Assembly: GCF_024814355.1 (NCBI RefSeq)
Contig: NZ_JANUXV010000001.1
Coordinates: 248,001 to 312,000 of the forward strand
Direction: 5' to 3'
Source: Gleimia sp. 6138-11-ORH1
GTDB lineage: Bacteria; Actinomycetota; Actinomycetes; Actinomycetales; Actinomycetaceae
DNA: 64,000 nt
The position numbers were made by a program, and so were the translations under genes. How positions within the stretch are numbered: the first letter of the stretch is position 1; each line of letters begins with the position of its first letter. The notes under the pieces are model-generated. The model was given only the letters and a program-made list of their open reading frames with translations. It ran no database searches and was not told the DNA's origin. Of this stretch, positions 48,587-54,506 are shown piece after piece.

Positions 48587-49990
48587 TTAAGAGATTTCTC
48601 CAAAGCGTTTCAAAGATTGCTGCGGAATCCACTGCCAGTTAGGACGAAAAGCCGTTTCATACCGGTATTCATAGCAGGCTTTTTCAAACTCTAAAACGGT
48701 TAGTAGCTGTTTTTCGAAGTCAGAGATACCGTGGGGAAAATATCCAGCTAGAAAAGCCTCTCTGGTAGTTTCTTCCCACTTTCGAGCTTTTGAGCTTAAA
48801 CCATATTTAACGGCAGCAGCATAAGAAAAAGAACGGAGCATTCCGGCGCAATCTCTTAAAGCCAGATCGGCCTTATGTCTGGACTCTAACGGGCGGAGTG
48901 GTTCGCCCTCGAAATCCACAAATTTCCAGGGGAATTTATCGTTTGCAGGGGTGTGGAGTACTTGGCCTAAGTGGAAATCTCCGTGGATTAGCTGAGTGGG
49001 CAGAAGTGAAATGGGGTTTGCAATAGGTTCTTTCGGGGCAGTTATCGACTGCGCGGAAGGGCTTTTCAGCTGCGCGGAAGCGAATTCCAGTTGCGCGGAA
49101 GAATCTATTGCAGAGGATAAAGAAGCCTCTTTTGAAGTAAAGAGTTTTTCGCATAGCTTTGCTAAAGGCGCAGCCAGGGTTGTCAGAAATTCTGAATCTT
49201 GGGGTAGTTTAGCTTGCGTATATTGATATTCAGCTTGGATTCGATCAATAAGGTGGGTTAGGAAAAGGGGAGTGGTCTGTGTAAACGCAGCTGCTAAATC
49301 AACGTGGAGTTGCAAAGTTGCTGCCCCTAAAGATGCTGCTAAGCAGGAAGCAGCAGTATCTTCTGTAAAGAGCTTCCAAGCATCTTTTGCTTCGCTGAGG
49401 AACTCACTTAGAACGCTTAGCGTATAAGAAACTCCAGCAATTTCCACTACTGCGCTTCCATAAAAGCGTGGTATCACCTGGCTACCTGATTTGCTTAGGG
49501 CAGCCCCAACTTTTACTTCCGGATGTTCACCGGGAAATAATACTCGAATGAACTTTAATAGCAGCGGTTTAGAGAACTCTTTACTATAGAGCACTAAAGA
49601 AGTGTTAGATTGTTCTGCTCCTAGGGGCTTTACCGTTAAATCTTCAGGGGCAGTTAGTCCAGAAAGAGTTAAGAGAGCCTTAGCAAAAAGCGGGTGGGCA
49701 GAGGCTTCTACTACCGGGAGAGGGTTTCCTATTTCCGGGGCAGAGGCTTCTACTACCGAGAGAGGGCTTCCCATTTCCGGGGTAGAGGCGTCTACCGCCG
49801 GAGCTGAGCTATCTTGCGCCAGCACTGGAACAGGTAATATCGCAGTGCCGGCGCTTAAAAACAGCAGCCAGATTCCATCTGCTCCTAGCTTTTGCGCGTG
49901 GACTAAATCTAGACTCGCATTTTTGGGACACCAACGCTGCTTTTGGATCCAGGGCAGTAAAGTACGCCAGCTGAAACTAACTTCTGTCAT
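48587..49990 (-). CDS. mak: Maltokinase with repeat-bearing insertions
   Basis: Mak makes maltose-1-phosphate from maltose and ATP, feeding GlgE. The kinase motifs are LIHGDFHLGQVL (catalytic Asp) and FVDFEGEPLRPL. I chose ATG 49990 (MTEVSFSWRTLL), two bases after the glgE stop; the longer frame to 50044 enters glgE. Two low-complexity insertions come from tandem DNA repeats: one in the N-terminal lobe (a 14-residue unit with PxxVVEAS) and one in the middle (SAQLEFA-type units). Both keep the frame and probably form surface loops. Confidence 0.9.
   Translation of the reverse strand: MTEVSFSWRTLLPWIQKQRWCPKNASLDLVHAQKLGADGIWLLFLSAGTAILPVPVLAQDSSAPAVDASTPEMGSPLSVVEASAPEIGNPLPVVEASAHPLFAKALLTLSGLTAPEDLTVKPLGAEQSNTSLVLYSKEFSKPLLLKFIRVLFPGEHPEVKVGAALSKSGSQVIPRFYGSAVVEIAGVSYTLSVLSEFLSEAKDAWKLFTEDTAASCLAASLGAATLQLHVDLAAAFTQTTPLFLTHLIDRIQAEYQYTQAKLPQDSEFLTTLAAPLAKLCEKLFTSKEASLSSAIDSSAQLEFASAQLKSPSAQSITAPKEPIANPISLLPTQLIHGDFHLGQVLHTPANDKFPWKFVDFEGEPLRPLESRHKADLALRDCAGMLRSFSYAAAVKYGLSSKARKWEETTREAFLAGYFPHGISDFEKQLLTVLEFEKACYEYRYETAFRPNWQWIPQQSLKRFGEIS
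49050..49101. repeat. 21-bp tandem repeat inside mak (3 copies)
   Basis: The motif TGCGCGGAAG recurs at 49050, 49071 and 49092, giving a seven-codon period. It encodes the Ser-Ala-Gln-Leu-type stretch. The reading frame is kept. Confidence 0.75.
49701..49796. repeat. 42-bp tandem repeat inside mak (2.3 copies)
   Basis: Units at 49701-49742 and 49743-49784 differ at four bases; a partial third unit is at 49785-49796. The period is 14 codons, so copy number can change without a frameshift. It encodes a Pro/Glu/Val/Ser-rich loop. Confidence 0.85.
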
Positions 49991-49992
49991 TC

Positions 49993-52056
49993 TTACTGGT
50001 CGCGCGAGACAGCCAGCACGTGAGCAGTGCGAATTTGTGGGCAAAGTTCCACGAAATTACGTTCTCCCCACTGGTATTCTCTACCGTCTAACTGGTCTAC
50101 TACCGTCAAAAGTGGCCCAGAGGAAGTATGCTGACCAGTTTCGCCAAGTTTACCGAAGTCTAAGTAGACTTCTCCTTGCACCGTATTTTGAGGATCTAGA
50201 TTGACCACTACAATCACCGTGTCTGCCACACCGGTGGGCGAGTGTTTAGCAGGTACGTGCTTAGAGAAACAGATGAGGCGATCATCTGAAGTGGGGTGAA
50301 TAGTTAGGTTATGCAGTTGCTGCAGTGCGGGATGTTCCTTACGCGCTTGATTCAGCAAAGTGAGAAGGTTAGCGATTCCATAGTCACCAACTTTCTTCCA
50401 ATTCCGAGGGCGGTACTCATACTTTTCGTTATTATTTTGCTCTTCATAACCGGGACGAGGTTCTTTTTCAACAAACTCATATCCCGAATAGATCCCCCAG
50501 GTAGGAACCGCAGTGGCTGCTAAGACAGCCCGTAAAGCAAACATAGCGGTTCCTCCGGCGGTCATCTGCGGAGTAAGAATATCGTGAGTGGTTGGCCAGA
50601 ATGCGGGGCGCATCAGGTGGGAAGTTTCCTGCGAGACTTCTTGGAAATACTCTTCTAACTGTTCCTTAGTGGTGCGCCAGGTGAAATAGGTGTAGGACTG
50701 ATGGAATCCGATTGCCCCTAAAGTACGCATCATAGCTGGCTTGGTGAAGGCCTCCGCTAAGAAAATTACTTCCGGGTGAGTGGAACGAACTTCGGTAAGT
50801 AAACGCTGCCAGAAATTCAGTGGTTTAGTATGCGGATTATCTACTCTAAATAAAGTCACTCCGTGTTTAATCCAAGTGTAGACGACGTTGCGGATCGCCA
50901 GGTAGATTCCCTCTGGATCATTATCGAAGTTAAGCGGATAAATATCCTGGTATTTTTTCGGAGGATTCTCAGCATAGGCGATAGTGCCATCAGCTCGGGT
51001 GGTGAACCACTCAGGGTGTTCACTAACCCAGGGGTGATCGGGAGAACACTGCAATGCCAGGTCTAAGGCAACTTCCATTCCCTGCGCTTTTGCTTCTTTG
51101 ACAAAGTTATCGAAGTCAGCAAAAGTTCCTAAATCAGGGTGAATAGCGTCATGGCCACCTGAGTGGGAACCGATTCCATAAGGGGAGCCAGGGTCATTTG
51201 GGCCTGCAGTTAGCGTATTATTTTTTCCTTTTCGGTGCGTAGTGCCAATCGGGTGGATTGGGGTTAGGTAAATGACATCAAAACCCATGCCAGCAATACG
51301 GGGAAGTTCTTTAGCTGCTTCAGCTAACGTACCTGAGATCCAATTTCCAGCATTATCTTGGAATGCTCCGTAAGAGCGAGGGAAGATTTCATACCAAGAC
51401 CCGAAGAGGGCAAGTTTACGATCGACTTGCAACGGATATGAACGAGTTGATTGGCATAAGTCCCGCAGCGGGAATGCTTTGAAAATACGACGAACCTTTG
51501 TTGATAATCCGCCAGATAAGCGTCTTTGCGCGGTGGCAGTTTGGTCACGCAAATAGGTGATGGCTTCAGAAATAACTTCTTTTGCGGTGGAATCTAAGGC
51601 AAGTTCTTTTAAGGCTCGTGAAAACAGGCGGGCGCCTTCTTCCAACATGAGCTCTACGTCAGTTTCGGCAGCGATTTTTACAGAAGCGTCGTGCGCCCAA
51701 GTGGCAAAAGGATCAGCCCAGGTGTCGATATGGAAACTCCAATTTCCCGGGTAAGTGGGCAGAACCCAGGCTTCGTAACGGTCCAAACCGGGGGCTGTGT
51801 CATGCATACGGACTCTTTGATGTTCCACTCCGTGAGGATCAACTAAGACAGCTTCTGCAGCTAAAGCATCATGTCCTTCACGAAAAACTGTGGCTCGGAT
51901 CGGGAAAGCTTCATTCTCAGTGGCTTTTGCCGCCCACAAACCGCCCTCGATAACCGGGAAAATTTCGATTGCGGGAATCCGAGTAATCTGTGCTTGGGCG
52001 GGAACTAAATTTTTAGGAACAGTTTTCCGGATCGTGACCCGACGCTTAGTAGCCAT
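49993..52056 (-). CDS. glgE: Alpha-1,4-glucan:maltose-1-phosphate maltosyltransferase GlgE
   Basis: GlgE extends alpha-glucan with maltosyl units from maltose-1-phosphate. Its GH13 motifs include DVIYLTPIHPIGTTHRKGKNN, DLALQCSPDHPWV, FRVDNPHTKPLNFW (nucleophile Asp) and IFLAEAFTKPAMM (acid Glu), as expected for GlgE. I chose ATG 52056 (MATKRRVTI) with AAGGAGT eight bases before it, not the longer frame to 52125. Length 687, normal. It is the first gene of glgE-mak-glgB. TreS is not in the window, so the source of maltose is not shown. Confidence 0.95.
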   Translation of the reverse strand: MATKRRVTIRKTVPKNLVPAQAQITRIPAIEIFPVIEGGLWAAKATENEAFPIRATVFREGHDALAAEAVLVDPHGVEHQRVRMHDTAPGLDRYEAWVLPTYPGNWSFHIDTWADPFATWAHDASVKIAAETDVELMLEEGARLFSRALKELALDSTAKEVISEAITYLRDQTATAQRRLSGGLSTKVRRIFKAFPLRDLCQSTRSYPLQVDRKLALFGSWYEIFPRSYGAFQDNAGNWISGTLAEAAKELPRIAGMGFDVIYLTPIHPIGTTHRKGKNNTLTAGPNDPGSPYGIGSHSGGHDAIHPDLGTFADFDNFVKEAKAQGMEVALDLALQCSPDHPWVSEHPEWFTTRADGTIAYAENPPKKYQDIYPLNFDNDPEGIYLAIRNVVYTWIKHGVTLFRVDNPHTKPLNFWQRLLTEVRSTHPEVIFLAEAFTKPAMMRTLGAIGFHQSYTYFTWRTTKEQLEEYFQEVSQETSHLMRPAFWPTTHDILTPQMTAGGTAMFALRAVLAATAVPTWGIYSGYEFVEKEPRPGYEEQNNNEKYEYRPRNWKKVGDYGIANLLTLLNQARKEHPALQQLHNLTIHPTSDDRLICFSKHVPAKHSPTGVADTVIVVVNLDPQNTVQGEVYLDFGKLGETGQHTSSGPLLTVVDQLDGREYQWGERNFVELCPQIRTAHVLAVSRDQ

Positions 52057-52202
52057 AATACTCCTTTGGTAAAACTGAGACTTTATGAAACCGCGGTAAA
52101 GTGAACGCAAAAAGCCTGGGTTCATAAAGTATTTAGGAACTCTTTTCCCAGTGTACCGGGGAAACTAACCAGAAAGTTCCGCTTTAGGATTTAAGAATCA
52201 AA

Positions 52203-52360
52203 CTAAAAGGTATTTTCGCAAATAACTGTGCCATCTTCGTATTAGTAACGGAAGGTGACTTTCGGGCTGAGATGCGAATTTGGCGGAAAGTTTTTGGATG
52301 AATCGTTTTCTAAACACGCTCTCAAATAGCGTATTAGGTGCTTGAACTTCCCTTTTTAAG
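52203..52360 (-). pseudogene. Broken third copy of the small lipoprotein family
   Basis: On the minus strand one frame reads VQAPNTLFESVF, matching APNTLVYEYF of the intact neighbours. After a frameshift another reads PKVTFRY, a TAA stop, then YEDGTVICENTF and TAG (52203-52205). The matching end of the intact copies is PKVAFRYLDKDGNLIWERTF. The signal peptide and N-terminal half are gone; in their place lies the 18-bp tandem array. It is therefore a decayed paralogue. Confidence 0.8.
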
Positions 52361-52366
52361 GCTGAA

Positions 52367-52475
52367 GCAGAAAGCCCTATGCGTGGCAGAAGCCCTACCC
52401 GTGGCAAAAGTTCTGCCCAGTGCAGAAGCCCTACCCAGCGCAGAAGCCCTATGCGTGGCAAAAGTTCTGCCCAGC
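52367..52475. repeat. 18-bp tandem array, six units
   Basis: Six units begin at 52367, 52386, 52404, 52422, 52440 and 52458. The first has one extra base. Units are of two kinds, GCAGAAGCCCTA(TGCGTG or CCCGTG/CCCAGC) and GCAAAAGTTCTGCCCAG, arranged in a mixed order. There are no unique spacers, so it is not a CRISPR array. It lies between the broken and the intact lipoprotein genes. Confidence 0.88.
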
Positions 52476-52514
52476 TATCTTAGAAACCTCAGTTCCTAAG
52501 ATAGCTGGGCAGAA
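52465..52514. repeat. Perfect 19-bp inverted repeat, hairpin
   Basis: Arms 52465-52483 and 52496-52514 are perfect complements with a twelve-base loop. One arm includes the last unit of the 18-bp array. On the minus strand it follows the stop of the 52534 lipoprotein gene, so it may act as its terminator, though no T tract follows. Confidence 0.85.
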
Positions 52515-52533
52515 GCTATGAATAATGTTCTAA

Positions 52534-53073
52534 CTAGAAAGTTCGTTCCCAGATAAGGTTGCCATCTTTATCTAGGTAACGGAAAGCTACTTTTGGATCT
52601 ACAATCCCAGCTCTTTCCATTTCCTGTTTCCCAAGTTTACTTGCTTCCTCAAGTTGTTGAGCCGCTAGTTTATCTAAGCTCTCAGCAAATAGTTTTGCAT
52701 CTGGAACGTCTTTGAGGACGTATTCGTAGACCAGCGTGCTTGGAGCTTCAGCCTTGCCGCGCACGCTAATCAGATGATCTCCATCAGCCCCTAAGGAAGA
52801 TAAATCTGTGGAGTTGATTTGGTCAACCATTTTCTGAAGGAAAGGGTGAATCTCAGTAGCAGGATCCTTAACTTCCTTATTACTTTCAGAAGATGAATCC
52901 TTATCAGTAGCTTTGGTAGAGTCAGAGCTTGCAGTTCCACCCTTAGCTTCAGAGAGAGATTTAACCTCTTGAGAATCTCCGTTTGAAGTGGTGGAAGCAC
53001 CTCCACAAGCGGAAAGTGAAACAGTTAAACCTAACGCTACCGCAAAAAGAGGGAGTTTTTTAAATGCACGCAT
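52534..53073 (-). CDS. Small lipoprotein, DUF4854-like, copy 1
   Basis: The 179-residue protein has a signal peptide with lipobox LSAC (Cys about 23), a Ser/Thr/Lys/Asp-rich linker (about 25-70), and a C-terminal domain with APSTLVYEYVLKD and DPKVAFRYLDKDGNLIWERTF. This resembles DUF4854-type surface lipoproteins of Gram-positive bacteria; function unknown. The neighbour at 53170 has the same domain. The DUF assignment is from memory of the family pattern. Confidence 0.8.
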   Translation of the reverse strand: MRAFKKLPLFAVALGLTVSLSACGGASTTSNGDSQEVKSLSEAKGGTASSDSTKATDKDSSSESNKEVKDPATEIHPFLQKMVDQINSTDLSSLGADGDHLISVRGKAEAPSTLVYEYVLKDVPDAKLFAESLDKLAAQQLEEASKLGKQEMERAGIVDPKVAFRYLDKDGNLIWERTF

Positions 53074-53169
53074 TTTAAGTCCTTAATATCAAGTTGTTTA
53101 CAAAATAGTGGGTAACAACAGAAAGGTGAATAGAGTTTAGTCTGTGGATAGGTAGGTCTAAATCTTAGC

Positions 53170-53580
53170 TTAGAAGGTGTGTTCCCAAACTACCTTACCG
53201 GTATGGTCCAGGTAACGGTATTTAATTTTAGGATCTTCAATGCCTTCATTTTCAAAAGACTTCTTAATATCGGTAGCTACATCAGTGAGGGAAGTAATCC
53301 CGTAACGTTCAAGGTGAGCTTTAGCTTCCTCAATATCAACTGACTCCTTATAAAAGTATTCGTAGACCAGGGTATTTGGTGCTTCAGCACGAACTTTAAA
53401 GTCAGAAAGTTCTTCACGACCGGGTAAATCTTCGAGTTTAACATTAGCAGAAGCATATTCAACTCCAGCTTCGAGCCTTGGGTCGATTCCAGGAGTATTA
53501 CCCGCGCAGGCAGAAAGAGAAAGACCAATAGCCACTGCAGCCACACCAGTTAATACTTGACGAACTAACTTGTTAAACAT
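53170..53580 (-). CDS. Small lipoprotein, DUF4854-like, copy 2
   Basis: Paralogue of the gene at 52534: 136 residues from ATG 53580, lipobox LSAC, no long linker, and the same domain (APNTLVYEYFYKES; DPKIKYRYLDHTGKVVWEHTF). I chose ATG 53580 because AGGAG stands seven bases before it; a TTG at 53595 overlaps that site. Tandem duplication is evident, with a third copy in ruins downstream. Confidence 0.8.
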   Translation of the reverse strand: MFNKLVRQVLTGVAAVAIGLSLSACAGNTPGIDPRLEAGVEYASANVKLEDLPGREELSDFKVRAEAPNTLVYEYFYKESVDIEEAKAHLERYGITSLTDVATDIKKSFENEGIEDPKIKYRYLDHTGKVVWEHTF

Positions 53581-53744
53581 TACATTTCTCCTCAAGATTA
53601 TTTTGACTTTTACACCTAAAGTCTATCGTTAGCTTAAACTTTTGCAAGGAAAATGAGAGATTTTAAGAAAAAATGAGATAGTTAAGACATGGAATAAGCA
53701 TAGAAGTAAGGGCCCTTGAGAAATCAGAAAAGTTGGAAGTTTAC

Positions 53745-54506
53745 ATGAAAGAAAATAAACCCCCCGTAGAAGCTGAAACTAAAGTTACGCTCACCAATAA
53801 AAAAATCCTACTTATACTAGGAATACTTGCTACGGTAGTTGCATTAGTTTGGGGTGGAAGCATTTTATTCCTAAAACGGCAGAATATTTCTTTGCGATTT
53901 CCTCCGGCAGAAGCATTCGATCCAGCAGCTTATGCGCGTTTGCACCCAACCAAAGACGATCCTAACTCTGTTACTGCACGAGCAAAATCTCTCGGTTGCA
54001 ATCTTTCCCCAAAACCACTGGGCACTCCGGTGAGCTTTGAGGTAGACCGCGGTGAGTTAAAACTACCTATGCTGTCTTTAGGCTTAGACGAAACTGGTTC
54101 AGCTCCGGCAGCTCCACCACTTTCCCAAACCCACACCATCGGCTGGTACAATCAGGGCCCACAAATCGGTGCTTCTCAGGGCAAAGCCGTGCTAACTGGA
54201 CACACCTATTCAGATACGGTGGGGATTGGAAATCAACTTTTAGAAGGAATAGTTAAACCCGGCGATATCATTAAGATTACCGATGAAGAAGGCGCTAACG
54301 CCTGCTATCGTTACCGCGACCAAGTGCGGATTGAGGTAGCTACCTATAATCCAGATTCTGATTTAGTTTATGACAATGCAGGTAAACCACAGATCGCAAT
54401 AGTTGTTTGCGATAACTTTTCTGCCGCGACAAACGAATGGCTGGTACGGGAAGTTTTTTACGGGGATTTACTTACCAAAACAAACCTAGAAACTTTCGAC
54501 AAATAA
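53745..54506 (+). CDS. Class E/F-type sortase
   Basis: The 253-residue protein has an N-terminal membrane helix (about 21-42) and a sortase domain. The catalytic His is in LTGHTYSD, the Cys in VVCDNFSA, and the Arg in WLVREVFYG. Sortases link proteins to peptidoglycan. No pilin gene or LPXTG substrate is seen in the window. I chose ATG 53745, with GGAAG five bases before it, rather than the TTG at 53733. It is divergent to the lipoprotein genes. Confidence 0.82.
   Translation: MKENKPPVEAETKVTLTNKKILLILGILATVVALVWGGSILFLKRQNISLRFPPAEAFDPAAYARLHPTKDDPNSVTARAKSLGCNLSPKPLGTPVSFEVDRGELKLPMLSLGLDETGSAPAAPPLSQTHTIGWYNQGPQIGASQGKAVLTGHTYSDTVGIGNQLLEGIVKPGDIIKITDEEGANACYRYRDQVRIEVATYNPDSDLVYDNAGKPQIAIVVCDNFSAATNEWLVREVFYGDLLTKTNLETFDK

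Follow-up and report, generated by a model that had tools for sequence, protein, structure and literature searches.

A probable pseudogene in a tandem lipoprotein gene trio of Gleimia and the 18-bp minisatellite beside it

In Gleimia sp. 6138-11-ORH1, the third gene (by position) of a tandem trio encoding DUF4854-type lipoproteins has probably become a pseudogene, and the 18-bp tandem array that adjoins its remnant is in the same reading a bystander, namely an ordinary minisatellite. The locus lies in a stretch of 64,000 nucleotides (hereafter the window, to which coordinates refer unless another contig or locus is named), where a divergent sortase gene on the plus strand is followed by lipA, lipB, a hairpin, the array, the remnant and glgE, all but the sortase gene being on the minus strand. 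As a whole, the case fits best with the ordinary erosion of a gene family together with an ordinary minisatellite.

The two intact lipoprotein genes and their neighbours

The first gene of the trio, lipA (53170-53580, minus strand), encodes a short form of 136 aa and scores 31.3 bits against PF16146 (DUF4854), above the curated cut-off of 28 bits. The second, lipB (52534-53073, minus strand), encodes 179 aa with a long low-complexity linker; it scores 27.5 bits alone and 28.5 bits together with its frame neighbours, at which the profile search marks it as over the cut-off, and it shares 44% identity with each of two tandem genes in a congeneric genome, G008. Both proteins carry SLSAC after a hydrophobic N-terminus, at residues 21-25 in lipA and 19-23 in lipB, which we take to be a lipobox-like motif, and C23 is invariant in a five-row alignment. 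With a hydrophobic signal and a lipobox cysteine, both products are predicted to be bacterial lipoproteins. An AlphaFold2 model of lipB built from five sequences is confident from about residue 72, behind a disordered linker, and reaches a pLDDT of at least 90 at 77 of the 179 residues. The closest fold match of the modelled domain is PA3611 (3npd; Z 9.4, rmsd 3.1, 103 aligned residues), followed by the pilotin EpsS (6i2v; Z 8.3, rmsd 3.9, 99 aligned), both of which are small secreted or lipid-anchored proteins; Foldseek returned no match at E 0.001 or below with this domain, the lowest E being 6.9e-3. The shared fold would thus tell us nothing firm about function, and a literature search for DUF4854 found no paper. 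Elsewhere in the same genome (C1:402183-402407, or L021 1501-1725), a fourth DUF4854-like lipoprotein scores 16.8 bits, below the cut-off, and is 57% identical to one on contig C14 of G008.

The sortase gene (53733-54506, plus strand) is Class-F-like, with 30.3 bits against PF04203 (cut-off 26.6) and 56.3 bits against NF033748, which is under the cut-off of 166; at the same position, G008 and a second congeneric genome, G005, have open frames with similar C-terminal ends. On the other side of the locus, glgE (49993-52056, minus strand; start codon picked by likeness to G008) has the GlgE domains, is present in 11 of the 11 genomes of the genus, and serves as the downstream syntenic anchor. A putative maltokinase gene contains two internal tandem arrays, at 49049-49101 (21-bp period, score 71) and 49696-49795 (42-bp period, score 165), and the open frame at its position measures, from stop to stop, 489 residues in the window, 484 in G008 and 354 in G005.

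The remnant and its open counterparts in sister species

The remnant of the third gene (about 52203-52365, minus strand) corresponds to a C-terminal half only. In tblastn searches, two parts of lipA align with it in different frames: residues 59-87 in frame 0, at 52279-52365, and residues 89-136 in the next frame, at 52206-52340. The latter alignment contains a TAA, and the stop lies at 52203. None of 1000 dinucleotide shuffles attained the best score of 27.7 bits (maximum 22.3). The homology to lipA and lipB was found by tblastn only, and a Pfam search with the ORF at 52198-52461, which holds part of the remnant, returned no family at E 0.1. The remnant is about 70 nt short of the corresponding part of lipA. 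Furthermore, when the N-terminal parts of eight lipoproteins were compared with the region 52366-52533, no match rose above chance level (E 0.49 or worse), leaving the signal peptide, the lipobox and approximately 100 N-terminal residues of a lipB-like protein without a counterpart above chance; the third copy lacks about 300 nt of coding sequence at its N-terminal end. A deletion has taken the start, the signal peptide and the N-terminal half of the gene, which has also been shortened internally, shifted in frame and given a stop codon; the comparison shows these lesions but not their order.

The initial annotation had described two intact DUF4854-like genes followed by a third with a frameshift and a TAA, and the PF16146 scores and tblastn frames agree with it. 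It had also proposed that finding the third gene complete at this place in another strain would reveal a sequencing error here. A complete copy is indeed present, at the level of sister species only, and it indicates no error, for about 300 nt are absent rather than one base. The species is represented by a single assembly, which leaves some room for a sequencing or assembly error, but such an error is extremely unlikely to account for a third copy that has lost about 300 nt of coding sequence and is in addition shortened internally, shifted in frame and interrupted by a stop; in particular, a one-base error cannot explain the third copy, because the whole N-terminal half is missing.

Of 59 genomes searched at the protein level, the own genome included, lipB-like genes were found at E 0.001 in four, i.e. 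the own genome, G005 and G008, both of the window's genus, and G014, a marginal case (9.1e-4) from another genus. G005 and G008 each have three tandem matches, none with internal stops, and both trios sit between trpS/sortase and glgE, the same place as in the window. The three open genes at this place imply that one copy decayed in the window's lineage, in keeping with the earlier proposal of a triplicated family with one decayed copy. The eight other congeneric genomes gave no match to lipB at E 0.001. Their best matches to the window's glgE are 71-76% identical, as against 92% in G008 and 85% in G005. The DNA upstream of glgE was examined in seven of these eight (G002, in which glgE is split over two contigs, was left out), and in none of the seven did tblastn at E 0.01 find a lipoprotein gene or a sortase gene of the window's type; in six of the seven, no more than about 0.4 kb separates trpS from glgE, and G003 has a 2.3 kb gap at glgE with no lipoprotein or sortase match. 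PF16146 was found at E 0.001 in 3 of 200 genomes of the family (the own genome, G008 and G095), a count that is a lower bound, since the profile misses the divergent copies of G005. A search of genome contigs with lipA found no relative. The sortase gene and the lipoprotein trio (53733-54506 with 52203-53580) form a block between trpS and glgE in three congeneric genomes. The simplest reading of these distributions is that the block was gained in one small clade, and that one copy was subsequently lost in the lineage of the window.

Which ancestral gene decayed is a separate question. By position the remnant is the third gene; by the tree, the identity of the decayed ancestral slot is not certain. 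The tree partner of lipA is G008_a (support 98/96), and that of lipB is G008_c (83/84), not G008_b, so the tree would also allow that it is the second gene, rather than the third, that is missing, or that conversion took place. The remnant itself, placed in the tree on 48 columns, has a branch of 4.77, and none of the six inner branches is well supported. The position of lipB in the tree is suggestive of a chimeric gene, and would fit an unequal recombination or gene conversion of lipB with lipC that rearranged the trio, the remnant being the half left over; the lipB sites that match only G008_b (25) and only G008_c (26) are also mixed along the gene. On the other hand, mosaic tests on lipB detected neither a significant breakpoint (max-chi permutation p 0.45) nor significant clustering (runs test p 0.20), and we consider this alternative unlikely.

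The hairpin and the 18-bp array

Behind lipB lies a hairpin (52465-52514, minus strand) that begins about 20 nt past the lipB stop. Its arms (52465-52487 and 52492-52514) are 96% complementary over 23 nt, including 19 contiguous perfect pairs, and 71 nt fold with -40.2 kcal/mol (z-score -8.4). Such a stable stem directly behind a gene is what is expected of an intrinsic terminator. The tail contains four T, and a terminator scan that looked for at least 5 T in 8 did not list it; despite this weak T-tract, a lipB terminator is the most likely role of the hairpin. Long intergenic hairpins are ordinary in the sampled genome: 34 with perfect arms of at least 14 bp, that of lipB included, were found in a sample of 384 kb made up of the window and 16 further stretches.

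The array (52367-52464) has a period of 18 and a TRF score of 87, which was reached by none of 1000 dinucleotide shuffles of the spacer 52060-52533 (maximum 64); it is thus, as expected of a minisatellite, a head-to-tail repeat beyond chance. Including the overlap with the hairpin, it comprises six units of two types, one represented by two identical copies and the other by four variants. The 18-bp array of two unit types in place of the N-terminal half, together with the perfect 19-bp inverted repeat, had been noticed in the initial annotation, and both descriptions stand. The period continues to about 52474, overlapping the foot of the hairpin by 8-10 nt, and, read along the transcript, the first array unit starts within the 3' arm; the array would therefore probably have grown there by slippage, whether earlier or later than the deletion. 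The 5' side of the hairpin also resembles the array units (p 0.01, 300 shuffles), as does the lipB end taken as a control (p 0.04), and no such likeness was detected in the middle of the stem (p 0.75) or in the remnant (p 0.61); a seeding of the array by both arms may be entertained at most tentatively. Two other origins were considered and rejected. When the array and hairpin (52340-52535) were compared with the whole own genome, only seven short matches, of E 0.99 or worse, appeared besides the region itself and its own inverted arm, so that a copy of a dispersed repeat family is rejected at that sensitivity. Nor is the array what remains of the third gene's low-complexity linker, since it abuts the remnant inside the domain (at lipA residue 59) and its frames are, by eye, unlike the acidic linkers. 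The linker-coding part does contain tandem repeats in the second gene of G008 and in the third gene of G005.

Arrays of this kind are common in the genome. In the 384 kb sample, 43 have a score of at least 50, compared with 2, 1 and 1 in three shuffled copies, and the window's array is near the median, 19 of the 43 being higher. Open frames of at least 120 aa contain 20 of the 43, and two of the 43 are those inside the window's putative maltokinase gene. Among spacers of at least 50 nt, as delimited by a crude ORF mask, 13 of 169 have an array, as do 3 of the 22 of 350-700 nt, the window's being counted in both cases. The glgE loci of G008 (L022, 14 kb) and G005 (L023, 15 kb) have four and two arrays, respectively, and six further glgE loci of about 16 kb (a congener's, L043, and five under other organism names) have 0, 0, 2, 0, 1 and 0. 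In G008, with all three lipoprotein genes open, one array (score 66) lies between the hairpin after the second gene and the third gene, and two more (221 and 63) lie beyond the third gene. Also behind the third gene of G008, a hairpin-like element appears by eye to be duplicated, and there is a 52-bp array whose unit looks self-complementary (L022 8960-9060 and 9122-9257).

These observations bear on the suggestion, made in the initial annotation, that repeat growth broke the gene, i.e. that its N-terminal half was lost through slippage or recombination involving the hairpin and array. The hairpin, array and remnant are contiguous without spare bases, and the period of the array enters the foot of the hairpin, both of which would be expected if this had happened; that the array exactly fills the space between hairpin and remnant speaks against a bystander and would also fit a single event. 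However, arrays are common in the sampled genome, and that of G008 between the hairpin of the second gene and an open third gene means that array growth needs no broken gene, so that an array next to a broken gene says little about cause. The suggestion is thus not supported, and we regard it as improbable, about as much so as the recombination of lipB with lipC. We prefer to view the array as a bystander, associated with relaxed selection or with the same instability of this locus: the leftover spacer would have come to lie directly behind the lipB hairpin, and an 18-bp minisatellite would have grown there by ordinary slipped-strand replication, starting from the foot of the hairpin or close to it, as the 8-10 nt overlap suggests. 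The order of the deletion and the growth of the array cannot be read from one genome.

It is very unlikely, in our view, that the array and hairpin together form a selected regulatory element, e.g. a reinforced terminator or an RNA stabiliser behind lipB. The predicted fold of the array RNA is somewhat stronger than that of shuffled sequences (z -2.7), 4 of 200 of which do equally well, but repetition itself can presumably raise folding scores; no other copy of the array in the genome is better than E 0.99, and the gap between the second and third genes of G005, only 22 nt, is too short for such an element. What could further favour it is that 6 of the 34 long hairpins lie within 100 nt of an array, compared with 1.9 expected (p 0.005); within 50 nt the numbers are 4 and 1.5 (p 0.048), and within 10 nt 3 and 1.2 (p 0.12), where the window's case is counted at each distance, the three distances were chosen after it had been seen and spacer structure is uncontrolled. 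This excess of arrays near long hairpins, weak and post hoc, is the sole lead beyond the ordinary. A window-like arrangement was noted at L128 402-496, where an 18-bp array, apparently built (by eye) from the end of the adjoining open frame, lies between the apparent end of that frame and a hairpin with 20-bp arms. That minisatellites of the genus arise preferentially at the hairpin feet of long-stem terminators, through template switching from one arm to the other, and then erode or displace the next gene downstream, is a conjecture that we hold to be quite unlikely, ranking below the two routes to gene loss by repeat growth or recombination and above a selected element. Judged by their titles, none of the 15 papers listed, of 129 matching a literature search on repeats, terminators and pseudogenes, concerns the arrangement of the window; among those listed, the ones that are bacterial and related in kind are one study of Wolbachia tandem-repeat markers and one on spacers and pseudogenes of Buchnera.

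Comparison with known systems

The locus serves mainly as a small, clear-cut instance of a gene family undergoing erosion, the same position still being occupied by open copies in two sister species. If arrays do start at the feet of terminators, the birth of bacterial minisatellites could be tested well in this genome, where arrays and long hairpins are both dense. With one genome per species compared, the array shares with bacterial minisatellites and VNTR loci its short tandem units, diverged copies, position in a spacer and apparent local growth. The lipB hairpin has the strong stem about 20 nt after the stop codon that is characteristic of intrinsic terminators; it differs in its short T-tract (four T), which falls short of the scan consensus. 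The modelled lipB domain resembles AspS-type pilotin lipoproteins and PA3611 in fold only, the sequence identity being 7-10%. Finally, lipA and lipB share with DUF4854 lipoproteins the domain and the lipobox-like SLSAC; they differ in scores that are near or barely over the cut-off, and in their organization as a tandem trio beside a sortase gene and glgE, which is found in three congeneric genomes only and of which the third copy is dead in one.
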